Part shown: piece by piece, positions 31,165-62,868 of the stretch | How positions within the stretch are numbered: the first letter of the stretch is position 1 | Layout: every line of letters starts with the position of its first letter | From: Rheinheimera pacifica | Lineage (GTDB): Bacteria; Pseudomonadota; Gammaproteobacteria; Enterobacterales; Alteromonadaceae | Reading direction: 5' to 3' | Assembly (NCBI RefSeq): GCF_900108485.1 | Contig: NZ_FNXF01000001.1 | Location: forward strand, 62,001 to 126,000 | DNA: 64,000 nt | Made by a program: the position numbers and the translations under genes | The notes under the pieces: model-generated | Told to the model about the DNA's origin: nothing | The model's input: only the letters and a program-made list of their open reading frames with translations | The model's database searches: none

Positions 31165-32044
31165 CGCCGTTTCCTGAAAGGGGTAAAGAGTTTGTCAGTT
31201 GTGTTGCAAGAATAAAAGCACCATCGAGTGCGCTACCGCGTGGCGGTTGCAGCAAAGTGTGGCATTCGGTATTTAGCAGCGGGGCGGTGGTGTCGGCCAG
31301 GCCGCCTAACAAGACTACCGGCAGCTCAAATTGCTCACGGGCGCTGTATAGCAGTTGGTGCACCGCTGCGCTGTGGCGCAGTAATAGCTTGTCGGCAACT
31401 TCGCAGCGCCCGGCATAGTTAAACACTAACGGCGCCAAAGTGGCGTAATCGTTCGGGCTGGCGGTTTTCAACCAGGGCAGTAACACAGTGGCATCATCGC
31501 CAATTTGTTGTGCCACGGCCTGCAATAACGGGCTTTTAATACCGGCCAGGCTGTCTACCTGCCATAGCAGTTCGCGTACTGCCTGCTTACCTAACCAGGC
31601 GCCACCGCCTTCATCGCCAATATTAAAGCCCCAGCCGCCGACTTGCTGCTCAGCGCCGTCGGCCAACAGGCGCATAGCAACCGAACCGGTGCCCAGCGCA
31701 ACTACCAACACCGGCTGGCCCAGATTAGCGCCATACAGTGAGGTTTTAGCGTCGGTGGTGAGTAAAAAACGCGCATAATGCCGGGCCAGCTGCTGGCAAG
31801 CCTGCTGATGTTGCTGCGGGTTACCGGCGCCGGCCAGCCCCATTACCGCTACCACTTGCCGGCTGTCGATACCGGCTTGCTGGCACAGGCTGGCACTGAG
31901 TAAATTAATATTACTCAGTGCCAGCGAAAAATCATTCGTCAGTGAGGCCGGGCCAGCTTGTTGCTGCCAGTGCTGGCCGGTGCTGGTATTGGTCAGGCGG
32001 GCCAGCGTTTTACTGCCACCACCATCAACCGCCAAAATCCACAT
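31154..32044 (-). CDS. BadF/BadG-type sugar kinase, probable MurNAc/GlcNAc kinase (MurK-like)
   Basis: The 296-residue ASKHA-fold kinase has phosphate-loop residues AVDGGGSKTLARLTN at the N-terminus, a catalytic-loop TTDAKTSLYGA (Asp around 100) and GWGFNIGDEGGGAWLG in the sugar-binding part. The family includes Clostridium MurK, which phosphorylates both MurNAc and GlcNAc. Context (symporter before, murQ and namZ after) supports MurNAc as substrate. The symporter stop and this start share one base (TAATG), and it overlaps murQ by 11 bp. Confidence 0.85.
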   Translation of the reverse strand: MWILAVDGGGSKTLARLTNTSTGQHWQQQAGPASLTNDFSLALSNINLLSASLCQQAGIDSRQVVAVMGLAGAGNPQQHQQACQQLARHYARFLLTTDAKTSLYGANLGQPVLVVALGTGSVAMRLLADGAEQQVGGWGFNIGDEGGGAWLGKQAVRELLWQVDSLAGIKSPLLQAVAQQIGDDATVLLPWLKTASPNDYATLAPLVFNYAGRCEVADKLLLRHSAAVHQLLYSAREQFELPVVLLGGLADTTAPLLNTECHTLLQPPRGSALDGAFILATQLTNSLPLSGNGDDK

Positions 32045-33615: not shown

Positions 33616-33679
33616 GCGCGGCTCTTAACAGTGAAAAAGTGCTTAACCATACCATAATGTATAGTGGGTGGGTAAAGTA

Positions 33680-33704
33680 TTCATTTAAATTTTACTTGAA
33701 TGAA
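33680..33704. promoter_or_regulatory. inverted repeat in the divergent symporter/GH3 promoter region
   Basis: TTCATTTAA (33680-33688) and TTGAATGAA (33696-33704) match as an inverted repeat at eight of nine positions, with a 7-bp spacer. It is 56 bp before the GH3 start and 65 bp before the symporter start. It is a good candidate operator for both promoters, perhaps for a MurR/NagR-type regulator outside the window. Confidence 0.4.
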
Positions 33705-33759
33705 TAATTTATTTTTGTTGTACTGCCTGCAGCTTTTGCCAAAATAACAGGATACCGCC

Positions 33760-48127: not shown

Positions 48128-48156
48128 AGCATGCACACAAAGAGGCAGAATATATA

Positions 48157-50886
48157 ATGAAAACAATACAACAATGTCAGCTACTGTGTGCCATGGCAGT
48201 GGCATTAGGTACAATAACCGGCTGTGGCAGCGGCGAAGACCCGGATGTGAACAATGCACCAACACCGGTATCAACCTCAGCTGAGGTAAGTGCGAGCGCA
48301 GTAAAAGGTATTTTAACGGGCGCCGCTGTCAGTATCAGTGCATTAAACGGCACTACGGTAACCAGTACAGCCGTACAGACCGATAGCAGCGGTATGGCCG
48401 CTACCACGCTAACGTCGGCCCCCGGTTATGCCTTTAGCGCAGTACACAAGCTGGCTGTTACCACTACGGCTGCTAGCAGTATGCTGTGCGACCTTAGCCT
48501 GTGCGGCGAAGCCACATTAGGGGCCGCAGTCGGCGCAGACGCACTGGGAACGGTGACGCTAAGTAACCTGTTCTGGTTAAAAGCGCCGCTTGGTGCTACT
48601 GCCGATGGTACCGCTGATGCCACGGTGCAGGTTAATGCGCTCACTACCTTTGCCAGCCAGTTACTGGAGGCGGCGATAGCTGGCGGGCGCAATGTGTCGG
48701 CACTTGCTACGCTGGAGCCGGCGCAGCTGGAATACTCAGCGCAGCTACTACGCATTCTGGGCGTAGATATGCCGGCAATAAACCTGATGCAGCAAGCGCT
48801 GCAAAGTGCCGATAGCGCGGAAAACTTTGCTCAAAGCAGTAACCAGCTTATTCGATTGTCTTTTGTTAACGCTGCTTTTGCCCACATTAGCCCAGAGGCA
48901 ACCCTGGCCGACACCTTTGCCGCCGCAGCAGCACAGGTTGCTCTGGCAGCACAGGGTGATGAGGCGGCTGCCACAGCACTGCGCCAACAGTTACTCGATG
49001 CGTTGCAGGGCCATCCGGTACTGGCAGAGCTGGGTTTAACCCCGGACAGCATTATTGATATTGAGCTGCCGTTAGTACTGGCAGATAACAGCAGCGGGCC
49101 AATTCGCGAATACACCACTGCGGCCTATTTAGCCGGCGCGCAAATTAGCTACCGCGGCGCTATCAGCGATAGTGAAAGTGGTGAGCAAGCCTTCGATGGC
49201 AGTGTTACCAGCAAATGGTTGGACAATACCGCTGTGCCAAGCGCAGCAGCACCTGCCTGGCTAACGTTGCAATTTGCGCAAGCGCAGGCTATCAGTGTGT
49301 TGTCTATTACCAGCGCCAACGATGCGCCGGATCGCGACCCGGAAAACTTTAACCTGCAGGCTTCCAACGATGGTGAAAGCTGGTTTACGCTGGGGCAATG
49401 GGCCGGTATCAGTTTTGAGCAGCGCTTAAGCGCACAGGATTTTGCTTTTAATAACAGCCTGCCGTACCGCTATTACCGGCTGAACATCACAAAAAATAAA
49501 GGCGATACCAACTTAATGCAGCTGGCTGAAGTGCAGCTGTTTGGCCCGGTTTATCCTGATCAGATCCAGCAAGGTGGCAGCATCAGCGCTCGCGGCGCCA
49601 TTGGCGATGCAGAGCGTGCCGAGATGGCATTTGATGGCCTGTTAACAACAAAATGGCTGGATAACACTGCGGTACCCACGGCAGAGCAGCCAGCCTGGGT
49701 GCAGATGCAGTTTAGCGAAGCAAAAGCTGTTAGCAGCCTTGCTATCAGCAGCGCTAACGATGCGCCTGAACGTGATCCGGAAAACTTTAACCTGCAAGCC
49801 TCAACCGATGGCAGCAACTGGCTGACAGTGGGTGAGTGGGCCGGTGAGAGTTTCGACAGCCGTGGCCTGCGCCGCTTATTCAGCGTTAACAATAGCCTGG
49901 CTTATCCGTATTACCGCTTGAATATCACCAAAAACAAAGGTGATACCAGCTTAATGCAAATTGCTGAAATTGAGCTTATCGGGCCGGCAGTACCTGCACT
50001 GAATCATGCTTTGGCAGCAACAGCGGTAACCTCCAGTGGTGCTATCAGTGATGCCGAAGCGGCCGCCTATGCCTTTGATGGCAACAGCCAAACCAAATGG
50101 CTGGATAACACTGCGGTGCCAACGGTAGCAGCGCCAGCCTGGGCCAGTGTGGCTTTGGCTGAGCCACAAGCAGTGAATATGCTGGCGCTGGTGAGTGCCA
50201 ATGATGCGCCGGACCGTGATCCGGAAAACTTCAGCCTGCTGGCATCTAATGATGGCGAATATTGGGTTAATCTGGGCCAATGGGCCGGTATCAGTTTTAG
50301 CGAGCGCGCCGAGCGGCAAACGTTTGCTGTCGCCAATGCACTGGGCTACAACCATTACCGGCTGAATATCAGCAAAAACAAAGGTGACAGCGCCTTAATG
50401 CAGGTGGCAGAAATTGAGCTGATTGGCCCGCAGGTACAAGCGCAGGATCACAGTGATAATGCTGCTGCACAAATCAGCGCACGTGCGGCTATCAGTGATG
50501 GCGAAGCGGGCACTATGGCGTTTGATAATAACCCGGCAACCAAGTGGCTGGACAACGGTGGCGTACCGTCGGTTGAAGCACCATCCTGGCTGGAAGTCAG
50601 CTTGCCAGAACCGGTGATCGTGAATACCTTTGCTATTACCAGTGCTAACGATGCACCGGACCGCGATCCGGAGAATTTCCGTCTGCTTGGCTCAAATGAT
50701 GGCACAAACTGGCAGCCATTGGGTAACTGGGCGGGTGAGAGTTTCGCAGCACGTGCAGAGCGGCGCAGTTTCAGCCTGTTAAATGGCCGCAGTTTCAGCC
50801 ACTACCGCATTGAGAGCACAAAAAACAAAGGTGATACCAATTTAATGCAGGTAGCGGAATTTGAGCTGATCGGCCCAGTGCTTTAA
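48157..50886 (+). CDS. lipoprotein with four tandem discoidin-like (F5/8 type C) repeats
   Basis: The 909-residue product has a lipobox (GTITGC, Cys23). Residues of about 40-320 form an Ala/Ser/Thr-rich region that begins with a carboxypeptidase-regulatory-like segment (VKGILTGAAVSISALNGTTV). Four repeats of about 146 residues follow, each with AFDG, a TKWLDN segment, SANDAP-RDPENF and KNKGD-LMQ-AE--L-GP, which are hallmarks of F5/8C carbohydrate-binding modules. It is probably surface-exposed and glycan-binding, working with the receptor upstream. No catalytic domain is seen. A terminator follows. Confidence 0.85.
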   Translation: MKTIQQCQLLCAMAVALGTITGCGSGEDPDVNNAPTPVSTSAEVSASAVKGILTGAAVSISALNGTTVTSTAVQTDSSGMAATTLTSAPGYAFSAVHKLAVTTTAASSMLCDLSLCGEATLGAAVGADALGTVTLSNLFWLKAPLGATADGTADATVQVNALTTFASQLLEAAIAGGRNVSALATLEPAQLEYSAQLLRILGVDMPAINLMQQALQSADSAENFAQSSNQLIRLSFVNAAFAHISPEATLADTFAAAAAQVALAAQGDEAAATALRQQLLDALQGHPVLAELGLTPDSIIDIELPLVLADNSSGPIREYTTAAYLAGAQISYRGAISDSESGEQAFDGSVTSKWLDNTAVPSAAAPAWLTLQFAQAQAISVLSITSANDAPDRDPENFNLQASNDGESWFTLGQWAGISFEQRLSAQDFAFNNSLPYRYYRLNITKNKGDTNLMQLAEVQLFGPVYPDQIQQGGSISARGAIGDAERAEMAFDGLLTTKWLDNTAVPTAEQPAWVQMQFSEAKAVSSLAISSANDAPERDPENFNLQASTDGSNWLTVGEWAGESFDSRGLRRLFSVNNSLAYPYYRLNITKNKGDTSLMQIAEIELIGPAVPALNHALAATAVTSSGAISDAEAAAYAFDGNSQTKWLDNTAVPTVAAPAWASVALAEPQAVNMLALVSANDAPDRDPENFSLLASNDGEYWVNLGQWAGISFSERAERQTFAVANALGYNHYRLNISKNKGDSALMQVAEIELIGPQVQAQDHSDNAAAQISARAAISDGEAGTMAFDNNPATKWLDNGGVPSVEAPSWLEVSLPEPVIVNTFAITSANDAPDRDPENFRLLGSNDGTNWQPLGNWAGESFAARAERRSFSLLNGRSFSHYRIESTKNKGDTNLMQVAEFELIGPVL
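49138..50883 (+). repeat. four coding tandem repeats of about 440-447 bp
   Basis: Equivalent points of the repeats lie at 49155, 49594, 50038 and 50485, giving periods of 439, 444 and 447 bp. The nearly invariant protein blocks (SANDAP-RDPENF and the KNKGD end) indicate recent duplication or gene conversion within the gene. Confidence 0.85.
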
Positions 50887-50907
50887 GCTGCAATATTGTT
50901 GGCATAC

Positions 50908-50935
50908 AAAAGGCGCGGCTAAGGCTGCGCCTTTT
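50908..50935 (+). terminator. intrinsic terminator after the discoidin-repeat gene
   Basis: AAAAGGCGC (50908-50916) and GCGCCTTTT (50927-50935) pair perfectly with a 10-base loop. The arms supply the A and T tracts, so it can work in both directions. It separates the receptor/discoidin unit from the kinase operon. Confidence 0.85.
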
Positions 50936-50956
50936 ATCATAAAGGTAATCTGATCG

Positions 50957-51862
50957 ATGTTAACTGTAAGCTCTGCACTGTTTGCCGGTATCGATGCCGG
51001 CGGCAGCCATTGCCGGGTGCGGCTGGAAGATGAAACCGGCACTTTGTTGGGTGAAGGGCGCTCGGGCGCTGCCAATCTGGGGCTGGGTTGGCCACAGGTT
51101 GAAGCCAATATCTGCCAGGCGCTTAATGCTGCTTTACAGCAAGCGGGCCTGAACAGCAGTGCTTATGCCCGTTTGCATGTTGGAGCCGGTTTTGCCGGTG
51201 CCCATCTGGCCGGGTTAAAAGCTACAGCGCTGCAGTGGCAGCACCCTTTTGCCAGCTGGCATGTTACCACCGACTTACATGCTGCCTGTTACGGCGCCCA
51301 TGGCGGCGAGGCTGGCAGTGTGATTATTCTTGGCACCGGCTTTAGTGCGATCGGGCTGACTGAACATGGCGAAACCCTGCTCGGTGGCTACGGCTTTCCC
51401 ATTAATGCGGTTTGCAGTGGTGCCGGTTTGGGTTTACAAGCGGTGCAGGCAGTATTGCTGGCACTGGATGCTCTGGCGCCTGCCACGGTGCTGACTGTCT
51501 TACTACAGCGACACTTTAACGGTGGTGCAGCATTGATGGCAGAGCAACTGCTGCAGGCTACACCGCAGCAATATGCTGAGCTGGCGCCGCTGGTGTTTCA
51601 GGCGGCGGATAGCGGTGATGCGGTTGCGCTGGCTATGCTGCAACAGGCATTCAATTTTATCAGCAGGCTTAACCAGCAACTGCCGCCAGGCCGTTGTTGC
51701 CTGCTGGGCGGCGTGGGGCAGCGCTTACTAACTTACCTGCCGCAAACCCAGCGTAGCCGCTTTAGTGCGCCGCTGGCCCCGGCAACGGTAGGGGCTATTT
51801 ATTATGCCCGCCGCCAACTGGCAGTTGCTGCGCAGGAGGCTGCACAAGATGGCGCAAATTGA
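50957..51862 (+). CDS. BadF/BadG-type kinase, probable N-acetylglucosamine/glucosamine kinase
   Basis: The 301-residue ASKHA kinase has phosphate-loop residues FAGIDAGGSHCRVRLEDETG and a catalytic-loop Asp in TTDLHAACYGAHGG. Its sugar-binding stretch is unusual. Where relatives, and the kinase at 31154, read GDEGxGAWLG, this one reads INAVCSGAGLGLQ, so the acidic pair is lost. It may therefore have altered sugar specificity. It overlaps cutC by 14 bp and is co-transcribed with an aspartylglucosaminidase, so GlcNAc released from GlcNAc-Asn is the natural guess for its substrate. Confidence 0.8.
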   Translation: MLTVSSALFAGIDAGGSHCRVRLEDETGTLLGEGRSGAANLGLGWPQVEANICQALNAALQQAGLNSSAYARLHVGAGFAGAHLAGLKATALQWQHPFASWHVTTDLHAACYGAHGGEAGSVIILGTGFSAIGLTEHGETLLGGYGFPINAVCSGAGLGLQAVQAVLLALDALAPATVLTVLLQRHFNGGAALMAEQLLQATPQQYAELAPLVFQAADSGDAVALAMLQQAFNFISRLNQQLPPGRCCLLGGVGQRLLTYLPQTQRSRFSAPLAPATVGAIYYARRQLAVAAQEAAQDGAN

Positions 51863-52607
51863 AATTTGTCTTGATAGCGACAGCCGTTACCTTACGCAGA
51901 ATATCCGCACCGTTTGCGCCGCCGGTATTGACAGCATTGAGTTGTGTAGCCAAATGGCGCAGCAGGGCTTATCTGTCAGTGCGGACGCTTTGCGTCAGGC
52001 GCGTGCGGCCTGTAATTCGCATACGCAGCTGCGGGTTATGCTCAGGCCCAGAGCCGGCAATTTTGTTTACTCGGTACCAGAGCAGCAGCAAATACAGGCG
52101 CAGTTACTGCAGGCAGCAAAACTGGGTGCTGATGGCATAGTGGTGGGTGCATTAACAACAGATGCGCAGCCGGATCTGCCGTTTTTAACCGGCTTATTGC
52201 AACAGTGCCGCCAACGGGGCCTGGCTTGCACTTTTCACCGTGCTTTTGACGCCTGCACCAGCCCGGCAGAAGCGATAGAGCAACTACTGGCATTAGGCGT
52301 ACAGCGGCTATTAAGCAACGGCACACCCTGGCAGCAACAGCAAAGCATAACGCAGGGCGTACGCCAGTTAGCAACCTTGCAGCAGTATATTGCCGGGCGG
52401 CTGGTGCTGGTGGCCGGTGGCGGCGTTACGTTAGCCAACTTGCCGCAGTTGCAGCAAACGCTTCACGACAATGCGCAGCTGTGCTGGCATTTGCATTCGG
52501 CGGTGCTGACAGAAGATAAGGTAGATGCCGCTAAGCTTGAGCAACTACAACATTGCCTAACTAAACGGGCTAAGCCAAACCGGCAACAAGGAGAGCCACA
52601 TGCTTAA
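51849..52607 (+). CDS. cutC: CutC family protein
   Basis: The 252-residue TIM-barrel protein begins at the ATG at 51849 (IEICLDS) inside the kinase gene's end. Family blocks are complete: GIDSIELCSQMAQQGLSVSA, RVMLRPRAGNFVYSVPE, LGADGIVVGALT, CTFHRAFD and LVAGGGVT. CutC was named for copper tolerance in E. coli, but its biochemical role is unproven. Here it lies between a sugar kinase and an aspartylglucosaminidase, with overlapping frames at both ends. This context fits an amino-sugar or glycan step better than copper homeostasis. Confidence 0.92.
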   Translation: MAQIEICLDSDSRYLTQNIRTVCAAGIDSIELCSQMAQQGLSVSADALRQARAACNSHTQLRVMLRPRAGNFVYSVPEQQQIQAQLLQAAKLGADGIVVGALTTDAQPDLPFLTGLLQQCRQRGLACTFHRAFDACTSPAEAIEQLLALGVQRLLSNGTPWQQQQSITQGVRQLATLQQYIAGRLVLVAGGGVTLANLPQLQQTLHDNAQLCWHLHSAVLTEDKVDAAKLEQLQHCLTKRAKPNRQQGEPHA

Positions 52608-53586
52608 ACGCCGCTACTTTTTAAAACTAAGCGCTATGTTGGGCGCCGGTGCTACAGCATCCGCTTTACTGCCCGGTTGTGCGGCAGTGGTAGCGCCGGT
52701 GCGTAAACCTGTGGTGATCAGCACCTGGGATTTTGGCCTGCAGGCGAATCAGGTGGCATTTAATTTATTGCAGCAGGGGCAGCGCGCCGTCGATGCGGTG
52801 CAACAAGGCGTAATGGTGACCGAAGCCGACCCGACCGAGCGCAGTGTGGGCTATGGCGGCCGGCCGGATAGGGATGGCAAGGTCACACTTGATGCCTGCA
52901 TTATGGACGAATTTGCCAATATTGGTGCGGTTGCTGCATTGCAGCAGATTAAACACCCGGTAGCGGTGGCGCGGGCGGTGATGGAGCAGACACCGCATGT
53001 GATGCTGGTAGGCCAGGGCGCGCTCGATTTTGCGCTGGCGCAGGGCTTTGTCGCTGAGAATTTACTCACCGCAGAGTCAGAGCAGGAATGGCTGCAGTGG
53101 CTAGAAGATGCCAACTACCGGCCAATCGTTAATATTGAAAATCATGACACCATAGGCATGCTTGCGCTGGACAGCCACGGCAATTTAGCCGGTGCCTGTA
53201 CCACCAGTGGCATGGCGTTTAAACTGCACGGCCGGGTCGGTGATTCGCCGATTATCGGTGCCGGGCTCTATGTCGATAACGAAGTGGGGGCCGCTACCGC
53301 CACCGGCCATGGTGAAGAGGTGATCCGGGTAACGGGCTCTTTTCTGGTGGTAGAGCTGATGCGTCAGGGCTACAGCCCGCAGCAGGCGTGTGAGCAGGCG
53401 GTACAGCGGATTTATCACAAGCTGCAACTGCGCAAAGGCAATATTGCCGACACCCAAATAGGTTTTATTGCGCTGAATAAAAACGGTGAATATGGCAGCT
53501 ATTGCCTGCAGCCGGGTTTTAATTATGCCGTGCAGCACCAGGGCGAAAGTAAGCTATATGCCGCAACGGCATTGCTAACGGGCTGA
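52600..53586 (+). CDS. N4-(beta-N-acetylglucosaminyl)-L-asparaginase (aspartylglucosaminidase)
   Basis: This Ntn-hydrolase of 328 residues cleaves the GlcNAc-Asn bond of N-glycopeptides. It should cut itself between Asp183 and Thr184 (context ENHDTIGMLALDSHG), making Thr184 the nucleophile. The N-terminus combines a twin-arginine motif (KRRYFLKLS) with a lipobox (ALLPGC), so it is probably a Tat-exported lipoprotein in the periplasm. It overlaps cutC by 8 bp. GlcNAc freed outside would then be imported and phosphorylated by the operon's kinase. Confidence 0.92.
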   Translation: MLKRRYFLKLSAMLGAGATASALLPGCAAVVAPVRKPVVISTWDFGLQANQVAFNLLQQGQRAVDAVQQGVMVTEADPTERSVGYGGRPDRDGKVTLDACIMDEFANIGAVAALQQIKHPVAVARAVMEQTPHVMLVGQGALDFALAQGFVAENLLTAESEQEWLQWLEDANYRPIVNIENHDTIGMLALDSHGNLAGACTTSGMAFKLHGRVGDSPIIGAGLYVDNEVGAATATGHGEEVIRVTGSFLVVELMRQGYSPQQACEQAVQRIYHKLQLRKGNIADTQIGFIALNKNGEYGSYCLQPGFNYAVQHQGESKLYAATALLTG

Positions 53587-53685: not shown

Positions 53686-56253
53686 ATGATTAGATGTTAC
53701 GCAGCGCTACTTGCCGCTTTGATATGCGGCGAGCTTGCTGCAGCGCAAGGCCGTGAAGTTGTTGTGGGTGTGTATCAGAATACTCCGAAAATTGTGGCTG
53801 CCGCAGATGGCAGCCCATCAGGTATTTTCGGTGATTTACTGCAAGTAATAGCAGCAGAGCAAAACTGGCGGATTAAAGCAGTGCAGTGTGATTGGGCGTA
53901 TTGCCTGCAAATGCTGCAGTCGGGCGAAATTGATCTGTTGCCCGATGTTGCCTTTACTGAACTGCGTAGTTTACAACTGGATTTTCACCAGACTCCGGCG
54001 CTTTACAGCTGGTCACAGCTATATACCGCGCAAGGTGTGCAGCTGCAGTCATTGGCTGCACTGGATGGCAAGCGGGTCATAGTATTGCAGGAATCTGTGC
54101 AGCAGCAATATCTGCAAAATATGATTACGCAGTCGGGTATGGATGTGGTGTTATTGCGTGCCCGTTCAATGGCCGAGGCTTTTGCGATGGCATCAGCCGG
54201 TCAGGCTGACGCGGTAGCGGCGAATCATTATTCCGGCCATTTCCAGCTGGCAAAGTATCAGTTGGAACAAAGTAATGTCATCTTTCAGCCGCTGCAGTTT
54301 TTTTATGCCACCAAAAAGCAGCACAATCAGGATTTGCTGACGGTTATCGAAACCCACCTGGCGCAGTGGCAAACCAATATCAGCTCACCTTATTACCAAA
54401 TTCTGCAGCGTTGGGGTACTGAGGTACCTGAGCCCAAATTACCGGAAAAAGTCTGGTTGTTGTTGGCGATGCTAAGCAGCTTGCTGTTACTGGCGCTATG
54501 CGGTGCCTGGTGGCTGAAACGACAAGTTGCCGATAAAACCCGCCATTTGCGTGCCAGTGAAGAGCGGCTCAGTACGATCTTAAACAGCGTAGATGCGCAT
54601 ATTTATATTAAAGATAATAAACTGCGCTATCAGTATATTAACCGTAAAACCGCAGAGTTGTTTGGTTGTGAACCGTGCAAGGCAATAGGGCGGCGTGATG
54701 ACGCTTTTTTTGACCAGTCAACCAGCGCTAATTTACAACAGAATGACTTAAAAGTGCTGCAACAAGGCATACGGCTGGTAGAGGAAGAAACCAACAGCTC
54801 ACTGGACAGCCAGCAAACACGTACCTACCTGTCAGTGAAGTTACCTTTACGCGATAGCAATGGCAATATTTATGCGTTATGTGGTATCTCCACTGATATT
54901 ACCGAGCATAAACAGCACCAGCAGGAAATTCATCAGCTGGCATTTTATGATGCGCTAACCGGTTTACCCAACCGCCGTATGCTGCTTGACCGGCTGCAAC
55001 AGGCTGTGCAATTAGGCTTGCGGCACAACAATACTGCACAAGGTGCATTGCTGTTTATCGACCTGGATCACTTTAAAGATCTGAACGATACCTTAGGCCA
55101 TGCCATGGGCGATCAGCTACTGCAACAAGTTGCCCAGCGGTTGCAGGCAAGCCTGAGAAAGGTCGATACACTGGCACGGCTGGGAGGCGATGAGTTTGTG
55201 GTGCTGCTGACCGATTTGCATCCAGATCCTGAGCTGTCGAGCCAGAAAGCCGGGCTGATTGCTGAAAAAGTGGTGCAGCTGTTATCTGAGCCATTTATGT
55301 TGCAGCAACGGCCATACTCTATTTCTGCCAGTGTGGGTGTGGCGATGTTTTCGGACGGCTGCAACAGTGACGAATTACTGCAGCATGCTGATCTGGCAAT
55401 GTACGATGCCAAAGAGCGCGGCCGTAATAGCGTGCGGTTTTTTAACCAGCAGATGCAGGCAGATGTCAGTGCCCGCTCGGATATTGCCACCGGTTTACGC
55501 CAGGCACTGTTACAGGATGAATTTGTCTTGTATTTTCAGCCACAGCTGGAGCGAAACCTTGGTGTAGTAGGTGCAGAAGTATTACTACGCTGGCAACATC
55601 CGCAGCACGGCATGATAGTGCCAGCCAGCTTTATACCTGTGGCCGAAAGCAGTGGCCAGATCCTGCAAATAGGCCGCTGGGTGCTGGAAAAAAGTTGCCT
55701 GCAGTTGGCTGAATGGGCCAGACACACCGACACGGCCCACTGGTATCTGGCGGTGAATATCAGTGCCCGGCAGTTACATTCTTCGGCGTTTGTGCAGGAG
55801 GTGGTAAGCGCTCTGGAGCAAAGCGGAGCGGCGCCGGAAAAACTGGTACTGGAGCTGACAGAAAGCCAGTTACTGCAGGATATCGACACCATTATTGATA
55901 AGATGCAGCAACTTAATACTCTGGGGGTACGCTTTTCACTGGATGATTTTGGCACCGGCTACTCATCGCTCAGTTATCTGAAACTATTGCCATTAAAACA
56001 GCTAAAAATTGACCGCTCTTTCGTACGCGATTTACTTACCGATCCTAACGACAAAGCCATTATTAAAACCATACTGGCGCTGGGGCAAAGCCTGGAGCTG
56101 GCCGTTATTGCCGAAGGAGTAGAAACCGAAGCGCAATACAGTAAGTTACTGCACCTGGGCTGCCAGCAGTTTCAGGGGTATTTTTTTGGTGAGCCGATGC
56201 CGCAAACCAGTTTTGTTACCCGCTACCGCCAGCGGCATGAAATGCAAAACTAA
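53686..56253 (+). CDS. periplasmic-sensor PAS-GGDEF-EAL cyclic-di-GMP protein
   Basis: The 855-residue protein has a signal-like start, an SBP family 3 domain in the periplasm (about 22-245), one membrane segment (about 262-281), a PAS domain (about 295-405), a GGDEF domain and an EAL domain. The cyclase site GGDEF is intact at 500-504. The EAL motif reads EVL at 631-633 (EVLLRW), with DDFGTGYSSLSYL and EGVET present, so phosphodiesterase activity remains plausible. It would sense a small extracellular solute and adjust c-di-GMP, linking nutrients to motility or biofilm. It stands alone and its end overlaps the convergent MocR gene. Confidence 0.93.
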   Translation: MIRCYAALLAALICGELAAAQGREVVVGVYQNTPKIVAAADGSPSGIFGDLLQVIAAEQNWRIKAVQCDWAYCLQMLQSGEIDLLPDVAFTELRSLQLDFHQTPALYSWSQLYTAQGVQLQSLAALDGKRVIVLQESVQQQYLQNMITQSGMDVVLLRARSMAEAFAMASAGQADAVAANHYSGHFQLAKYQLEQSNVIFQPLQFFYATKKQHNQDLLTVIETHLAQWQTNISSPYYQILQRWGTEVPEPKLPEKVWLLLAMLSSLLLLALCGAWWLKRQVADKTRHLRASEERLSTILNSVDAHIYIKDNKLRYQYINRKTAELFGCEPCKAIGRRDDAFFDQSTSANLQQNDLKVLQQGIRLVEEETNSSLDSQQTRTYLSVKLPLRDSNGNIYALCGISTDITEHKQHQQEIHQLAFYDALTGLPNRRMLLDRLQQAVQLGLRHNNTAQGALLFIDLDHFKDLNDTLGHAMGDQLLQQVAQRLQASLRKVDTLARLGGDEFVVLLTDLHPDPELSSQKAGLIAEKVVQLLSEPFMLQQRPYSISASVGVAMFSDGCNSDELLQHADLAMYDAKERGRNSVRFFNQQMQADVSARSDIATGLRQALLQDEFVLYFQPQLERNLGVVGAEVLLRWQHPQHGMIVPASFIPVAESSGQILQIGRWVLEKSCLQLAEWARHTDTAHWYLAVNISARQLHSSAFVQEVVSALEQSGAAPEKLVLELTESQLLQDIDTIIDKMQQLNTLGVRFSLDDFGTGYSSLSYLKLLPLKQLKIDRSFVRDLLTDPNDKAIIKTILALGQSLELAVIAEGVETEAQYSKLLHLGCQQFQGYFFGEPMPQTSFVTRYRQRHEMQN

Positions 56254-57689
56254 CCTGTATTACGTTGTAATGCATTACGGCAGAGAGCTATTAACGCAGC
56301 CAAAGCGTTGGTTAACTGCGCCACTGTGTTATGGCCAATGCCCAGCACCAGGCCACTGCGTGGCTCAGCATTAAACAGGTAGCGGCTAAGTGGTTGGGTT
56401 TTAATACCTAGCGCTGTTAGTTGTTGCTGTAAGCAAATATCATCAAGCCGTTCAGGAAATTCCAGCACTAAATGTAAGCCAGCGTCCAGCGCATATAAGC
56501 GGCACTGCGGCAACCCTTGTTGCAGCAGCTGTGCTGCAAACTGCTTTTGCTGCTGATAATAGCGGCGCATTTTGCGCAGGTGGCGGCCAAAATGGCCTTC
56601 ACTGATAAAGTCGGCCAATGCGGCTTGCGGCAGTAGTGGTACATCGCCATGCAAAGCCTGTAAAATGCTGGCGGCCTGAGCGATAACCGCTTTGGGTGCA
56701 ACCAGATAACCGAGGCGCAGCGCCGGAAATAAGGTTTTGCTGCACGAACCGGCAAATAACACACCTTCACCCCCTGCCAGCCCCTGTAAGCTGGCAACAG
56801 GCCGGTGCTGATACTGAAACTCGCTGTCGTAATCATCTTCTACCAGCCAACAATTATGTTGGCGCGCCCATTGCAACACGGCCAGCCGGTTTGCCAGTGG
56901 CATAATACCTCCCAGCGGATACTGATGCCCAGGTGTTAAAAACAATGCTTTTGCCTCAGTTTTGTCGGGCAGTGTTTTGATATCAAGACCACTAGCAGAG
57001 CTAGCATCCAGATGCTGCACCTGCAACTCGCACAGCTGTAACGCCTGCTTCAGGCGCGGGTAGCCGGGAGTTTCCATCAATACCTGCTGGCCTGCCTTTG
57101 CCACCAGTTTGGCTGCAATAAACAGTGCCTGCTGTGCTCCGGCGGTGATCAGTATGCTGTGCTCGTCACATACCACCTGGCGCGACTGACGCAGATAAAC
57201 AGCCAGTGCCTGACGCAACGGCAGGTAACCCAGAGGCTCAGCAAAGCCGCTTAACTGCTCTCGGCTGCTATGGCGCGACAGCAGACGTTGCCATAACGCA
57301 TAAGGAAACTGCTGCAAAGCCGGTACACCGGGCTGCAGCAAGCCAGTTGCCGCTCCCTGTTTTTGCGGTAAATCATAGTGGTTTAGTGTTAGCTGGTTAA
57401 GTGGTAAAGCCCGGGCAGGATCCGGCTGAAAATACTGCTCTGGCACAGCAATAATCTGATAGCCGCGGCCTGGCTGACCTTCGATATAGCCCTCTGCTAC
57501 CAATTGCTGTAGCACCTGATTTACCGTGTTGCGGCTTAGTTTTAAGTCTGCGGCCAACTGACGGCTGAAGGGCAGTAAGGCGCCATTGGGCCAGAGCCCC
57601 TGCAGCATTTGGTGTTGTAACAACTGGTATAGCTGCAGTTGCAGGCTACCCTGGCCGCTAAGCTGCAGGTTGTCGGTTAGTAGGCGCAA
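56250..57689 (-). CDS. MocR-family (GntR + aminotransferase) transcriptional regulator
   Basis: The 479-residue regulator has an N-terminal GntR winged helix (about 10-80: LLPFSRQLAADLKLSRNTVN) and a fold-type I aminotransferase domain. That domain contains YLPLRQALAVYLRQSR, a DDYDSEFQYQ segment for PLP binding, and the lysine motif FAGSCSKTLFPALRLGYLV. PLP or an amino acid would modulate DNA binding. The start is TTG at 57689. It diverges from a GNAT gene, and a 28-bp imperfect inverted repeat lies between. Regulation of the GNAT-paiB unit is expected. Confidence 0.92.
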   Translation of the reverse strand: MRLLTDNLQLSGQGSLQLQLYQLLQHQMLQGLWPNGALLPFSRQLAADLKLSRNTVNQVLQQLVAEGYIEGQPGRGYQIIAVPEQYFQPDPARALPLNQLTLNHYDLPQKQGAATGLLQPGVPALQQFPYALWQRLLSRHSSREQLSGFAEPLGYLPLRQALAVYLRQSRQVVCDEHSILITAGAQQALFIAAKLVAKAGQQVLMETPGYPRLKQALQLCELQVQHLDASSASGLDIKTLPDKTEAKALFLTPGHQYPLGGIMPLANRLAVLQWARQHNCWLVEDDYDSEFQYQHRPVASLQGLAGGEGVLFAGSCSKTLFPALRLGYLVAPKAVIAQAASILQALHGDVPLLPQAALADFISEGHFGRHLRKMRRYYQQQKQFAAQLLQQGLPQCRLYALDAGLHLVLEFPERLDDICLQQQLTALGIKTQPLSRYLFNAEPRSGLVLGIGHNTVAQLTNALAALIALCRNALQRNTG

Positions 57690-58188: not shown

Positions 58189-58770
58189 GTGTATCCACCA
58201 GCTTTTTATTACAGCGATGACCGCATACAACTGCAGACGTTTTTGCAGCAACATTATTTTGGTTTACTGCTTAGTAGTAACACCAGTTTGAGCTACACAC
58301 CACTTCCGTTTTTATTTGACTGGCACAGCACGGGTGATAAAGCGTATTGCCATTTAGCGCGTAATAACCCGCAGCTAAGCCAGTTAGACGGCGCGCCGGT
58401 TACTATTATTATTCAGGGGCCGCATGCTTTTATTGCCGCCAGTTGTTACCAGCAGCAACCGGCGGTATCCACCTGGAATTACGCCCTGGTTGAACTAAAA
58501 GGCACAGCACGGTTGCTAGATGCAGAGCAAACGCTGGCATTGGTCAGAAAACAGGAAGCGCACAGCGCACCGGATATGGCACAAGCCTCTGACTACCAAA
58601 AAAAATTAGTTAATGCCATAGTCGGTGTTGAGATTAACCTGAGCAGTGTAACGGGCCGTTTTAAGTTATCGCAAAACAAAACGCCTGCAGAGCAGCAGGC
58701 GGTTATCCGTTATTTGCAGCAAACTGAACAGCCAGCCACGGTATGGCAAATGATGCTATCGCAGCATTAG
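58189..58770 (+). CDS. paiB: FMN-binding PaiB-family protein
   Basis: From the GTG at 58189 (GGGAG upstream) the product has 193 residues and begins in the family manner (MYPPAFYYSDD). An ATG at 58147 inside the GNAT gene would add a tail not seen in relatives. The split-barrel FMN-binding fold shows FDWHSTGDKAYCHLARNNPQ, VSTWNYALVELKGTARL and a GVEINLSSVTGRFKLSQNK motif. In Bacillus, PaiB is described as a repressor of sporulation and degradative genes, with PaiA an acetyltransferase; the GNAT-PaiB pair here matches that layout. The end is 1 bp from the convergent dat gene. Confidence 0.88.
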   Translation: MYPPAFYYSDDRIQLQTFLQQHYFGLLLSSNTSLSYTPLPFLFDWHSTGDKAYCHLARNNPQLSQLDGAPVTIIIQGPHAFIAASCYQQQPAVSTWNYALVELKGTARLLDAEQTLALVRKQEAHSAPDMAQASDYQKKLVNAIVGVEINLSSVTGRFKLSQNKTPAEQQAVIRYLQQTEQPATVWQMMLSQH

Positions 58771-58771
58771 G

Positions 58772-59638
58772 TTAATAATCGAACTTATGTGCGCTGAAAA
58801 GCTGTTGTACTGTAAGCCAGACATCGCCTACTTTACCGTCAGCTACTGGCTTGTCGTTAACATATAGCACTGGCGCAATTTCTTTGCTGGAACTGGTAAG
58901 CCATATTTCATCGGCGGCCAGTACTTCGGCTTCGCTGATATCGCGCTCTTCTACTTTGATGCTGCTGTGTTTGGCTAAAATCGCCAGCAATAGTTGCCGG
59001 GTAATACCAGGCAGTAATTTATGGCTTAATGGCGGCGTGGCAATAACACCATCTTTTACGATAAACACATTTACTGCTGCGCCTTCGGTTAAGTTACCGT
59101 CTTTATCAAACAACAGTATTTCCTGCGCGCCCTGACTGTAGCTTTGTTGGTAATGCAGCACATTACCCAATAATGATGTCGATTTAATATGGCAGCGCTG
59201 CCAGCGTAAATCCTGGCCGGTAACCACGGCATAGGTGGTGGCTTTGGCTTTATCGGCCACCGGCTCGGACGGAATGGCAAAGGCAAAGCCAAACACCGTT
59301 GGCGCTATATTGGCAGGAAAGGCATGACCGCGCTTGGTATCGGTGCCGCGGCTAACCTGAAAATACACGCCGAGGTTATCGCCCAGTTCTGCACGGTTAT
59401 CTGCCAGTAGTTTATCAGCTATATGTTGCCAGTCAGCCAGGCTTAGCTTGGGGTCAATCGACAGTTGTGCCAGGCCGCTGTGCATGCGGTCAATATGTGG
59501 GCCAAAACCAACAAAGCGGCCACCATAACTTGGGATCACTTCGTAGATGCCGTCGCCAAATAAAAAGCCGCGGTCCATCGGCGATATTTTAGCCTCACTG
59601 GCCGGTACGAAAGCGCCGTTTAAATATACTGTTGTCAT
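58772..59638 (-). CDS. dat: D-amino acid aminotransferase (class IV)
   Basis: This PLP enzyme of 288 residues swaps amino groups between D-amino acids and keto acids, typically D-Ala + 2-oxoglutarate to pyruvate + D-Glu. The PLP lysine is Lys152 in RCHIKSTSLLGNVL, matching the RCDIKSLN pattern of known D-amino acid transaminases. FGDGIYEVIPSYGGRFVGFG is also typical and a TEGAAVNVF block follows. A branched-chain or aminodeoxychorismate specificity is less likely by these motifs. It is the last gene of the pxp operon, coupled by an ATGA overlap. Confidence 0.87.
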   Translation of the reverse strand: MTTVYLNGAFVPASEAKISPMDRGFLFGDGIYEVIPSYGGRFVGFGPHIDRMHSGLAQLSIDPKLSLADWQHIADKLLADNRAELGDNLGVYFQVSRGTDTKRGHAFPANIAPTVFGFAFAIPSEPVADKAKATTYAVVTGQDLRWQRCHIKSTSLLGNVLHYQQSYSQGAQEILLFDKDGNLTEGAAVNVFIVKDGVIATPPLSHKLLPGITRQLLLAILAKHSSIKVEERDISEAEVLAADEIWLTSSSKEIAPVLYVNDKPVADGKVGDVWLTVQQLFSAHKFDY

Positions 59639-60489
59639 TGCGGTTCTCTTAATAAGCTACATAAATCATCAATCAGTTGCAGGCCTTCAGTATGCGGCAG
59701 GCCATCTTCGGTCAGGGTATTTAACCGGGTAACGCCATCCACACTGCCTTTGGCCGATAAATACTGCAAAATCGCCAGCGGATCGGCATCACTTAGCAGG
59801 TTTTCATTGCGCAGCAAGGACACCATTGCCGCCAGGCCCCAGGCTGCCCAGTTTGATACATCGGCCACAATCAGCTCATCGCATTCGGTTACCGCCGGAG
59901 TAATGTTTAGTGCGCTAACAGCCTGCAATAAATTACCCATGCCAATTTCATTGCCGCCATCGCCAATGCCAATAGTCGGGCAGGGCGCCTGGGTTAAAAA
60001 ATAATCAAAGCTGGCGCAGCGGGCGCTGATATCTTCACCACGCATATTGGCGTAGCGCTGCTGTGCATTAAAACCGGGCCGCTCGATGGATATCACCAAC
60101 TGCGGCTGTAATTCTGCCAGCGCAGCACTGGCGATGGCTGGCAACGCTTCATACTGATTTACCGTAATTTGGTAGCACTGGTAATCAGCTTTTAATGCGC
60201 TGTATAGCGGATCGCCACAGACGATAACCGGCTTTGCCCCCAACTGAGTTAGCAACTGATATAAAGCAATAGCGCCGACCGGGCCGTCGGTTTCAAAGGT
60301 ATCCAGCACCGGAAAACCGGTGCCGATCAGCACAGTACCACGGCATTGGTTAATCAACCGCGCCGCGCGCAGAATATAACCGGCGCGCAAATGCGGTTTT
60401 AGTGCCGCCATACCGCGCAGGTTTTGCCGCACTAATAGCTGTTCTATCTGTTGGCTTAACGCCAGATAATCGGGGATCAGTGCTGTCAT
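59635..60489 (-). CDS. D-glutamate cyclase-like protein (DUF4392)
   Basis: The 284-residue product matches the DUF4392 domain found at the C-terminus of mammalian D-glutamate cyclase (DGLUCY), which converts D-Glu to 5-oxo-D-proline. Visible blocks are VLIGTGFPVLDTFETDGPVG, IGIGDGGNEIGMGNLL and CDELIVADVSNWAAWGLAAM. It sits between pxpC and a D-amino acid aminotransferase, with ATGA overlaps on both sides, so the neighbours make its expected substrate and use its expected product. Function is inferred by homology and context, as bacterial members are poorly studied. Confidence 0.85.
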   Translation of the reverse strand: MTALIPDYLALSQQIEQLLVRQNLRGMAALKPHLRAGYILRAARLINQCRGTVLIGTGFPVLDTFETDGPVGAIALYQLLTQLGAKPVIVCGDPLYSALKADYQCYQITVNQYEALPAIASAALAELQPQLVISIERPGFNAQQRYANMRGEDISARCASFDYFLTQAPCPTIGIGDGGNEIGMGNLLQAVSALNITPAVTECDELIVADVSNWAAWGLAAMVSLLRNENLLSDADPLAILQYLSAKGSVDGVTRLNTLTEDGLPHTEGLQLIDDLCSLLREPQ

Positions 60490-61430
60490 TTCAGGCTCAC
60501 CAGTTGGCTTGTTATTGCATCAGTACGTACTTTGGCTAAACAGAGTGCATTATGCGCCTGTTCAGGGCTGATTGGGGTAAAGTAGAGTTCTGTACCCGCC
60601 ACAGCCTGTGCCAGCAGTGCACAATCGAGTGAGAGTACTGAGCCAATTTTCGGATAGCCACCCAGCGTCTGGCGGTCATTTAACAGCACTATCGGTTGGC
60701 CATCGGGCGGTATCTGCACTGCGCCGTAGCAGATGCCTTCTGATAACAACTGGCTTTGCTGACAACTGATGGCTGCGCCTTTGAGTTTGTAACCCATGCG
60801 ATCGGCCTGCGGCGTCACTGTATAGCTGTTAAGGTAAAAACGCTGGCGCTCTGCAACAGAAAAACTTTCTGCCTGATAACCTTCAATCAAACGTAGTGTC
60901 AGGACGCGGTTAAACTGTGGCCGGTAGGCCTGCGGCAGGCTTAGCCTTGGTAGCTGCTTGACCTCCTGTGCTGCAAGCAAATCGCCGGTTTGCAGTTTAT
61001 TGCCATTTAAGCCGCCAATACCTTCGCGTAGCACGGTAGATACGCTGCCAAACTGGGCCGTTATATTAAAACCACCGGCCACCGCCAGATAAGCCCGCAG
61101 GCCTTTGTTTACCATGCCCAGTTCGATGACATCGCCTGGCTGTATTTTATGCACTGCCCAAAGCTCAGCCGCGTTGCCGTTAATGCTAAGTGGCAGTTCT
61201 GCACCGGTAATGGCAATATAACTACTGCAGTCAGCGCGCAGTTGCAGGCCGCCAACACTGCACTCTATCAGGGTGGCGTTACTGTGATTGCCCAGTAACC
61301 GGTTAGCCCAACGGGCAGAAGGGGCATCCATGGCGCCGCCGGTGGTCAGGCCCAGCGTACTCTGGCCAAAACGGCCGTTATCCTGCAACAGGCTTAATAC
61401 ACCGGCAGCTATTACTTCAAAGCTGCTCAT
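60486..61430 (-). CDS. pxpC: 5-oxoprolinase subunit PxpC
   Basis: PxpC works with PxpA and PxpB to hydrolyse 5-oxoproline to glutamate with ATP. The 314-residue length is normal. Family blocks are LLQDNGRFGQSTLGLTTGGA followed by MDAPSARWANRLLGN, LRAYLAVAGG and GAVQIPPDGQPIVLLNDRQT followed by LGGYPKIGSV. Together with PxpB it forms the allophanate-hydrolase-2/1-like pair. ATGA overlaps join it to pxpB before and the cyclase-like gene after. Confidence 0.95.
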   Translation of the reverse strand: MSSFEVIAAGVLSLLQDNGRFGQSTLGLTTGGAMDAPSARWANRLLGNHSNATLIECSVGGLQLRADCSSYIAITGAELPLSINGNAAELWAVHKIQPGDVIELGMVNKGLRAYLAVAGGFNITAQFGSVSTVLREGIGGLNGNKLQTGDLLAAQEVKQLPRLSLPQAYRPQFNRVLTLRLIEGYQAESFSVAERQRFYLNSYTVTPQADRMGYKLKGAAISCQQSQLLSEGICYGAVQIPPDGQPIVLLNDRQTLGGYPKIGSVLSLDCALLAQAVAGTELYFTPISPEQAHNALCLAKVRTDAITSQLVSLK

Positions 61431-62146
61431 AGTTCAGCACCTTGTAGTTCACCGCCCAGGCGTAAAAATTCTGCTTTATCTATCGCGACAAAGCGTACTT
61501 CATCGCCTACCGATACAGGCATCGCCGGCGTTTGCTGGGGGTTAAACATCCGCGTTGGACACAGGCCAATTAAATTCCAGCCGCCCGGTGAAGCTGCCGG
61601 ATATACTGCAGTTTGCCGGTCGGCAATGGCGACGGCACCGCGTGGCACTTTTGCGCGTGGTGTGGCTAAACGTGGCATTTGTAAGAGTGGGTCTACCTCA
61701 CCTAAATAAGCAAAACCGGGTGCAAACCCAATGGCGTAAACACGGTAACTGACAGCCTGATGACGCTGAATAACGTCATCAATGCTGATATTTTTTGTCT
61801 GGGCGATAAGAGCTAAATCCGGCCCGCTCTCTTCGCTGTAATACACCGGCAGCTCTACCCGTTTACAGCTGTGGCTTTCGCTGTTTTGTAATTGCGCCAG
61901 GCAGTGCTGTAACTGCGCCTGTACGCGAAAGTGATCAGTGCAAAGCGGATTAAACATCACCAGCACCGAGGCATAAGAGGGCAGTACGTCGATAAGATCT
62001 GCTGCCAGTTCAGCACGGATCAGCACGCAAGCCTGCTGCACTAAGGCAGATATGGCCGGGTCAATGCGCTGGTCAAAATACAGCATCAAAGCATTTTCAC
62101 CGGCGACAGTCAGCTGATACTGCGGCTTACTTATGCCCATACTCAT
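61427..62146 (-). CDS. pxpB: 5-oxoprolinase subunit PxpB (KipI family)
   Basis: The 239-residue product has the family blocks ENALMLYFDQRIDPAISALV near the N-terminus, ELPVYYSEESGPDLALIAQ, GFAPGFAYLGEVDPLLQMPR and VPRGAVAIADRQTAVYPAAS followed by PGGWNLIG. It is the KipI/allophanate hydrolase subunit 1 fold. With PxpA and PxpC it makes the ATP-dependent 5-oxoprolinase. It starts inside the stop codon of pxpA and ends inside the start of pxpC. Confidence 0.95.
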   Translation of the reverse strand: MSMGISKPQYQLTVAGENALMLYFDQRIDPAISALVQQACVLIRAELAADLIDVLPSYASVLVMFNPLCTDHFRVQAQLQHCLAQLQNSESHSCKRVELPVYYSEESGPDLALIAQTKNISIDDVIQRHQAVSYRVYAIGFAPGFAYLGEVDPLLQMPRLATPRAKVPRGAVAIADRQTAVYPAASPGGWNLIGLCPTRMFNPQQTPAMPVSVGDEVRFVAIDKAEFLRLGGELQGAEL

Positions 62147-62868
62147 TTTAACAGGGCCCTTATTTGCTGCACCTGGGCAATAGCGGCCTGGTTATCACCA
62201 TGTACACACAGTGTATCGGCGTTAAGCGGCAGTTGTTTGCCGGTTGCGGTGGTTACTGTGCCGTGTTTAACCAGCTGGGCAACCTGTGTCAGCATCTCAT
62301 CAGCATGTAATACGGCGCCCGGCTGGCTGCGCGGGGTGAGTTTGCCATCGTCGGTGTAACGCCGGTCGGCGAAGGCTTCAAATAACAGAGTAACGCCTTT
62401 GGCGGCAGCTAAATCGCGGTATTGTTGCTGCTCTGCTGTGGCCAAAATCATCAATTTAAGCGGTTTATAGTAGCGGGCCACGGCGTCCAGTACCGCGTCA
62501 AATACAGCTGGTTTGCCCATCATATCGTTGTATAAAGCACCATGTGGTTTGACATAGCTAAGGCTTAACCCCGCGCTTTGTGCCATACCATCCAGTGCAG
62601 CAATCTGATAATGCAGACAGTTCACTATTTCGCTGTGCGACAAGGCCATACTGCGCCGGCCAAAGCCTTGCAAATCGGGGTAAGAAGGGTGTGCACCTAC
62701 AATAACACTGTGCTGTTTTGCCAGTTGTAAGGTTTTTGCCATTACATCCGCATCACCGGCATGAAAACCACAGGCAATATTGGCCATATCAATATGTGGC
62801 ATCACATCGCTGTCCAGCCCCATTTGCCAGCTGCCAAAGCTTTCACCGAGATCACAGTTCAGTTTCAT
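62143..62868 (-). CDS. pxpA: 5-oxoprolinase subunit PxpA (LamB/YcsF family)
   Basis: The 241-residue product begins at the ATG at 62868, preceded by GGAGGGAAG, and reads KLNCDLGESFGSWQMGLD, the normal N-terminus of the family. An ATG 33 bases further upstream would add an unlikely tail. Other blocks are IDMANIACGFHAGDADVMA, VGAHPSYPDLQGFGRRSMAL and LSYVKPHGALYNDM. It is the first gene of a five-gene operon whose remaining genes are pxpB, pxpC, a D-glutamate cyclase-like gene and dat. Confidence 0.95.
   Translation of the reverse strand: MKLNCDLGESFGSWQMGLDSDVMPHIDMANIACGFHAGDADVMAKTLQLAKQHSVIVGAHPSYPDLQGFGRRSMALSHSEIVNCLHYQIAALDGMAQSAGLSLSYVKPHGALYNDMMGKPAVFDAVLDAVARYYKPLKLMILATAEQQQYRDLAAAKGVTLLFEAFADRRYTDDGKLTPRSQPGAVLHADEMLTQVAQLVKHGTVTTATGKQLPLNADTLCVHGDNQAAIAQVQQIRALLK

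Follow-up and report, generated by a model that had tools for sequence, protein, structure and literature searches.

The vertebrate protein DGLUCY (9030617O03Rik/C14orf159) joins an N-terminal DUF1445 and a C-terminal DUF4392 domain in one polypeptide (PMC5339696; PMC5132392), and linked sequential functions of the two domains have already been suggested (PMC5132392). The pairing of a DUF1445 protein, YcsI, with the 5-oxoprolinase genes pxpABC is already known from the Bacillus subtilis operon pxpA-ycsG(mntG)-ycsI-pxpB-pxpC-kipR (PMC10448178). The operon considered here, pxpA-pxpB-pxpC-DUF4392-dat, lies on the minus strand of a 64 kb stretch of DNA (the window) from one contig of a 4.46 Mb Rheinheimera genome. 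Like DGLUCY, this genome encodes both DUF1445 and DUF4392, but the two are fused in vertebrates, whereas here they are separate genes and the bacterial set is joined with PxpABC and Dat. The B. subtilis operon likewise holds PxpABC and a DUF1445 gene together; unlike the present one it has no dat as described, and the B. subtilis genome, alone among the control genomes in having PF07286, has no DUF4392 match. With TON_0340 of Thermococcus (4fc5, 5gl2-5gl4, 5gkx) the operon shares the DUF4392 family, its fold and six acidic metal ligands, though TON_0340 is archaeal and weak phosphatase activity, nothing further, has been shown for it. Catabolic clusters for N-acetylmuramic acid (MurNAc), with NamZ, MurK, MurQ and a transporter, offer another parallel, as such genes occur in the window and, in related genera, next to the operon; the reading proposed here adds a D-glutamate (D-Glu) branch to them. 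We favour, with little better than even confidence, the view that the operon represents five sixths of a conserved D-Glu salvage system leading through 5-oxoproline to glutamate.

A conserved gene set and its displaced sixth gene

The five open reading frames lie where an earlier note on this DNA had placed them, their Pfam matches agree with the names it gave, and all four junctions read ATGA, as it had said:

62143-62868, minus strand: pxpA (LamB/YcsF family), 5-oxoprolinase subunit A; PF03746 317.8 bits, NF003816 368.3 bits (cut-off 213)
61427-62146, minus strand: pxpB (CT_C_D), 5-oxoprolinase subunit B; PF02682 226.2 bits, TIGR00370 155.5 bits (cut-off 145.55); ATGA overlap
60486-61430, minus strand: pxpC-like (CT_A_B), 5-oxoprolinase subunit C; PF02626 287.9 bits, TIGR00724 249.9 bits (cut-off 230.2); ATGA overlap
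59635-60489, minus strand: DUF4392 (GLUCM-like_C), putative D-glutamate cyclase or its partner; PF14336 226.9 bits (cut-off 27.9)
58772-59638, minus strand: dat, D-amino-acid transaminase-like (class IV); PF01063 166.4 bits, structure-sequence alignment
58682-58701, minus strand: terminator-like hairpin with a T tail, just 3' of dat; a consensus match only

The ATG of pxpA at 62868 is preceded by the Shine-Dalgarno sequence GGAGGG, and a longer alternative starts at ATG 62901. Its product passes NF003816, a subfamily model, and falls below the cut-offs of three PxpA equivalog models (NF003812, NF003813, NF003815). Adjacent genes for subunits A, B and C, which mark the prokaryotic 5-oxoprolinase PxpABC, are present. 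The solved structures nearest to Dat are the D-amino acid aminotransferases 4pbc, 4m0j and 3daa, with the R-x-H motif, Lys and Glu aligned (RGH/RAH, IKS/IKS and TEG/TEG against 3daa); these correspond to the pyridoxal phosphate lysine, the glutamate and the R-x-H carboxylate motif of the Bacillus D-amino-acid transaminase. The consensus scan that found the hairpin gave no promoter-like match upstream of pxpA. A MocR/PdxR-like regulator gene lies near the operon (56250-57689; NF052282 377.5 bits, cut-off 320).

The closest named relatives of the DUF4392 gene belong to Rheinheimera species, at no more than 94% identity. Among the related loci (the best 80 of 173 relatives, a set leaning towards close kin), pxpA, pxpB and pxpC lie near DUF4392 on the same strand in 77, 77 and 78, and because so many share it the grouping is not a matter of chance. 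Two of the three loci that lack pxpA (L042, L077) end at a contig edge. dat is present in 71 of the 80 and follows DUF4392 within 400 bp in 44, so the overlap with dat is not a conserved feature; a LysR-type gene, found in 32, mostly stands between the two (this label and that of branched-chain-type, or Liv, ATP-binding cassette (ABC) genes come from reading of the sequences, with no family search). In 14 loci dat is followed by alr, its identity confirmed at one of them (L170, TIGR00492 over cut-off).

A sample of 295 Alteromonadaceae genomes, 64 of them with DUF4392, gives a wider view. At the 63 loci surveyed, the window's own being excluded, genes on the same strand and no further than 6 kb away include DUF1445 (51 loci), pxpA (57), pxpB (56), pxpC (56), dat (50) and alr (7). 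The 18 genera with DUF4392 each have at least one locus with DUF1445, 15 have one with pxpA, 14 with pxpB, 14 with pxpC, 12 with dat and one with alr; by genus, the bond between DUF1445 and DUF4392 is tighter than that to pxp. All seven loci without a nearby pxpB have pxpB elsewhere in the genome (nine of nine when two further genomes searched are included), and at L091, L092, L179 and L202 DUF1445 is paired with DUF4392 while pxp is absent. The arrangement DUF1445-pxpABC-DUF4392 also occurs in Marinobacterium, Amphritea, Leucothrix and a Cellvibrionales metagenome-assembled genome; dat accompanies it in most of these loci, those of Leucothrix excepted. This conserved gene set supports the earlier proposal that D-amino acid transamination, a DGLUCY family member and 5-oxoprolinase form a functional unit. 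In one genus (L171, L196, L197), pxpA lies between DUF1445 and DUF4392-dat, with pxpB elsewhere in the genome.

The sixth gene of the set, DUF1445, has been displaced. The operon polypeptide carries DUF4392 only, and the single DUF1445 match in this genome (PF07286, 235 bits; L003:7622-8422, minus strand) lies outside the window, on the operon's contig but about 63 kb away. In relatives DUF1445 is usually found upstream of pxpA: it is on the DUF4392 strand in 63 of the 80 related loci and, in 49, no more than 3.5 kb from DUF4392, which places it beside pxpA. At L016, L018, L025-L027, L040, L043 and L044 the row spoT-ridA-recG-DUF1445 is followed 1-3 kb on by pxpABC-DUF4392-dat. In the window's genome the same row is kept together, with an extra gene of 494 codons after recG, far from pxp. 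As this recG-DUF1445 neighbourhood is intact yet distant from pxp, DUF1445 has become separated from the operon in this lineage; across Rheinheimera, it is near DUF4392 in only 6 of 17 loci.

The proposed route and the cell wall

From the gene content we infer the reactions and their direction. Dat would collect amino groups from D-amino acids, for example cell-wall D-Ala, to form D-Glu, or would draw D-Glu out again; DUF4392 with the separately encoded DUF1445, as a split DGLUCY, would turn D-Glu into 5-oxoproline and pass it on; and PxpABC would open 5-oxoproline to glutamate at the expense of adenosine triphosphate (ATP). The main source of D-Glu would be peptidoglycan. Within this genome PF03746 (pxpA) and DUF4392 have a single match each, no PF02538 (OPLAH-type) gene was found, and of the three class IV transaminase genes found only dat is of the D type, the others being PabC and IlvE (models over cut-off).

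The earlier note had tied the operon to cell-wall D-residues through a D-Ala-D-Ala dipeptidase in the window. The dipeptidase is there, and a stronger tie is provided by a peptidoglycan cluster at 29051-35661, about 23-30 kb from the operon, homologues of which adjoin the operon in other genera:

6258-6938, minus strand: D-Ala-D-Ala dipeptidase (VanX/DdpX-like), possible D-Ala source; PF01427 153.3 bits, VanX equivalog 199.1 bits, below its cut-off of 320
29051-30232, minus strand: NamZ exo-beta-N-acetylmuramidase; PF07075 268.2 bits, PF20732 99.5 bits, no NCBIfam match
30229-31164, minus strand: MurQ-type N-acetylmuramic acid 6-phosphate etherase; TIGR00274 399.3 bits (cut-off 302)
31154-32044, minus strand: BadF-type sugar kinase, perhaps a MurNAc kinase; PF01869 69.5 bits, sole NCBIfam match NagK_SO3507 126.5 bits, below its cut-off of 370
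32044-33615, minus strand: SSF sodium:solute symporter; PF00474 115.6 bits
33760-35661, plus strand: GH3 beta-N-acetylhexosaminidase (NagZ type); PF00933 301.9 bits, NF003740 211.6 bits (cut-off 207)

GH3 or NamZ genes lie in the surveyed stretch of 15 of the 63 Alteromonadaceae loci, in 8 of the 18 genera, some of them with a MurNAc kinase or etherase; the other 48 loci have none. Such genes, with the kinase-etherase and the symporter, were recognised by phmmer against the proteins of locus L092 (E <=1e-10, whole protein), and some of the GH3 proteins are perhaps not NagZ. L092 itself, without pxp, reads NamZ, kinase-etherase fusion, symporter, GH3, RpiR regulator, DUF1445, DUF4392 and flavin adenine dinucleotide (FAD) dehydrogenase, the kinase fused to the etherase being of BadF type. 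The cell-wall D-Glu route has good support as a pathway, though not at the level of chemistry. The count leaves out MurKQ matches at the outermost end of L147 and L163 (from 17 loci to 15) because the corresponding place in the window (50957-51862) is taken by a BadF kinase, in line with CutC and a PF01112 gene. The longer row at 45161-53586, with a TonB receptor, an F5/8-type C protein, the BadF kinase, CutC and PF01112 (asparaginase/glycosylasparaginase family), perhaps serves the use of asparagine-linked N-acetylglucosamine.

A second cell-wall context involves MurL. The MurD2-MurL route handles the D-Glu of peptidoglycan, and MurL and MurD are enzymes of wall synthesis. The two phylum-sample genomes with DUF4392 but no DUF1445 (G057 and G108) both have DUF4392 by a MurL-like gene, adjoining it in the first and two genes away, with MurD between, in the second; both matches to the model (UDP-MurNAc-L-Ala-L-Glu epimerase) are below its cut-off. 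In contrast, the window's genome has no MurL match. Among 299 Pseudomonadota genomes MurL is found in 15, so that 13 have it without DUF4392. DUF4392 and MurL-like genes without DUF1445 are seen at L086:8517-10944 and L087:8754-13717; in L087, MurD and an unknown protein of 429 residues stand between them. The MurL-like neighbours in these two genomes would suit an operon that balances D-Glu and 5-oxoproline during wall synthesis, with Dat making D-Glu, the cyclase removing the excess and Pxp recovering the carbon. This is improbable: MurI (TIGR00067 205 bits, cut-off 146.65) and an Asp/Glu racemase-type gene (TIGR00035 over cut-off) are present, so Dat is dispensable for D-Glu, and in 8 of 18 genera it is genes of degradation, NamZ or GH3, that lie nearby. 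The presence of MurI also led us to drop the idea that Dat is required for making D-Glu.

Several observations weigh against the salvage route. The pxpC product scores 226.4 bits where the PxpC equivalog NF045499 demands 500, and the gene is therefore named PxpC-like. Dat misses both curated cut-offs (218.4 against 277.45 for TIGR01121, 247 against 320 for NF005209) and is therefore named Dat-like, though these are nonetheless the top two of 22 models for it. The third related locus lacking pxpA, L058, is a true exception without pxp. G043 and G134, two of the 10 phylum-sample genomes with DUF4392, lack DUF1445, pxp and dat in the surveyed stretches (L084, L085), and MurL was not found in them either. 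DUF1445 is without DUF4392 in 47 of the 55 phylum-sample genomes that have it. A dipeptide epimerase is the usual route for stem-peptide D-Glu, and a dipeptide-epimerase-like gene (L210; NF041118 245 bits, missing the cut-off of 500) is present in the window's genome, next to an NlpC/P60-like gene assigned by reading of the sequence; we accordingly dropped the operon as sole D-Glu salvage route. TON_0340, a DUF4392 protein standing alone, is a di-manganese, RecJ-like, weak Mn2+-dependent phosphatase (PMC5132392), and the passages of PMC5339696 and PMC5132392 cited here give no D-Glu activity for a stand-alone DUF4392 or DUF1445. Finally, 5-oxo-D-proline is excreted by man (PMC5339696), which suggests that DGLUCY there feeds no 5-oxoprolinase and also speaks against racemisation by DUF1445.

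Ring closure and inversion

The earlier note took DUF4392 to be a known D-glutamate cyclase. This does not hold, since D-Glu cyclase activity was measured on the full-length mouse protein, DUF1445 included (PMC5339696), and the stand-alone TON_0340 is a weak phosphatase. The window's DUF4392 protein is homologous to TON_0340 (E 1.3e-28) and keeps its six acidic metal ligands (E66, D68, E136, D177, E181 and D251), all unchanged in each of 50 sequences; its model (predicted local distance difference test score, pLDDT, 94.3) matches 4fc5 with Z 34.7 and a root-mean-square deviation (rmsd) of 2.0 over 254 residues. Next in likeness are the folds of RecJ- and NrnA-type phosphoesterases (Z about 9-12).

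In another division of labour, DUF1445 by itself would be the D-Glu cyclase, or a 5-oxoproline enzyme, and DUF4392 a Mn2+-dependent phosphatase clearing a phosphorylated side product, which would leave the pathway as it is and shift the reaction to the other subunit. We regard this as rather unlikely. The phosphoesterase folds agree with it, as does the loss of the Mn2+/Mg2+-dependent phosphatase activity of TON_0340 on changing D157 or E59 (PMC5132392), and PF07286 is named D-Glu_cyclase in Pfam. On the other hand, that activity was very low on the 20 compounds tried (PMC5132392), and DUF4392 occurs without DUF1445 beside MurL-like genes and in archaea, which have no DUF1445 according to PMC5132392, and must therefore have a job of its own. 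Lactam chemistry at a di-metal site is familiar from dihydroorotase, and by this analogy the site of DUF4392 may suit ring closure as well. The Mn2+ importer of the B. subtilis operon is a loose fit with a Mn2+ enzyme. DUF4392 as an Asp/Glu racemase was set aside, its solved relatives being TON_0340 and RecJ-type phosphoesterases and its sole Pfam match PF14336; no racemase fold is among the DUF4392 matches listed, which excludes nothing. A DUF4392 relative bears the name aspartate/glutamate/hydantoin racemase in PMC5339696.

The distribution of DUF1445 bears on the same question. In the Pseudomonadota sample DUF4392 occurs in 10 genomes, DUF1445 in 55 and both in 8. A survey of 56 DUF1445 loci (from 57 matches, the window's genome left out) finds pxp within 6.5 kb in 17, a hydantoinase/oxoprolinase-type gene in 10 others, and a tripartite ATP-independent periplasmic (TRAP) or branched-chain-type ABC uptake gene in 33; TRAP (PF03480), amidase, DUF2848 and hydantoinase/oxoprolinase labels were set by Pfam on one protein each and extended by phmmer, and the hydantoinase-type query (L114) scores highest with caprolactamase models, below cut-off. 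Among the 51 loci without a nearby DUF4392, 25 adjoin pxp (15) or hydantoinase/oxoprolinase-type genes (10), which is also in line with a DUF1445 cyclase.

A real puzzle, as the earlier note recognised, is stereochemistry: descriptions of characterised Pxp enzymes concern the L-form, and the salvage route starts from D-Glu. One solution is that PxpABC takes 5-oxo-D-proline to D-Glu, Dat hands the amino group of D-Glu on to pyruvate and Alr yields L-Ala, so that scavenging proceeds without inversion at glutamate. The alr genes that follow dat in 14 of 80 related loci would fit, and with its low equivalog score PxpC may differ in specificity; however, a D-Glu cyclase is left with no forward role, just one of 18 Alteromonadaceae genera has an adjacent alr, the L-form is the one on record, and the main text of PMC13274462 lacks '5-oxo-D-proline', 'D-5-OP' and 'D-glutamate'. 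We think this solution unlikely.

For the salvage route, a place for the inversion can be suggested. The earlier note had considered a racemase acting elsewhere, and DUF1445 fits that part of its proposal, as an inference. In two-base, cofactor-independent racemases, two invariant cysteines stand one in each half, each after the end of a strand. The corresponding positions of DUF1445, C121 and C229, are Cys/Cys in 167 of 171 matches, Ser/Ser in 3 and a gap in 1, and never mixed (the set includes near-duplicates, and the three Ser/Ser sequences come from one genus and possibly one event). The modelled L011 protein has strand ends at 123 and 231, directly before C124 and C232, so that each half has one conserved cysteine after a strand end; His190, Thr232 and Gln234 are also nearly invariant. 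Because co-conservation of two cysteines is a feature of two-base racemases, DUF1445 is a tentative, and still doubtful, candidate for a 5-oxoproline (pyroglutamate) racemase using them as acid and base. An internal two-fold repeat does not help this reading: the halves can be aligned with their cysteines matched, but scores as high came from 18 of 200 column permutations and from 31 of 36 circular shifts, which is not significant. Apart from its own structural-genomics structures (2pif, 3db9), only 3nek, the NrpR-like protein MJ0159, is prominent among fold matches (Z 9.5, rmsd 4.5, 167 residues, 13% identity). NrpR action depends on 2-oxoglutarate (PMC9765008), and the likeness hints at a pocket for a C5-dicarboxylate, without being proof.

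Were DUF1445 such a racemase, DUF4392 as cyclase, DUF1445 and PxpABC would together invert D-Glu to L-Glu irreversibly, via the lactam and paid for by ATP. The occurrence of DUF1445 without DUF4392 beside pxp, hydantoinase/oxoprolinase-type genes and uptake systems would be explained, and vertebrate DGLUCY would be a cyclase-racemase fusion, its second activity perhaps lost. The literature searched, which was limited by licence, mentions DUF4392 in two papers and a '5-oxoproline racemase' in none, and gave no report of the full set with DUF4392, Pxp, Dat and cell-wall genes; the founding Pxp paper of 2017 may show part of it. Overall the observed operon stands and the pathway idea is strengthened; the assignment of enzymes is uncertain, with DUF1445 a candidate for the stereochemical gap. 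The gene set provides a pathway context for DUF4392 and DUF1445, little-known families found from microbes to man, and indicates the pair of genes to purify together. It reduces to a few assays the questions of how bacteria handle 5-oxo-D-proline and which half of human DGLUCY forms it, and points to a second way of recovering cell-wall D-Glu besides dipeptide epimerases.

Two unusual forms of these families were encountered. In one genus (L140-L142) a divergent DUF1445 subfamily has both cysteines replaced by Ser and has lost His248; these loci are without pxp, hydantoinase/oxoprolinase or uptake neighbours, as is L102, though its cysteines are kept. In genome G274 (L089:5680-16440), a frame of 3586 residues holds two DUF4392 domains and a DUF4781 match, adjoining DUF1445 and a LysR-type gene.

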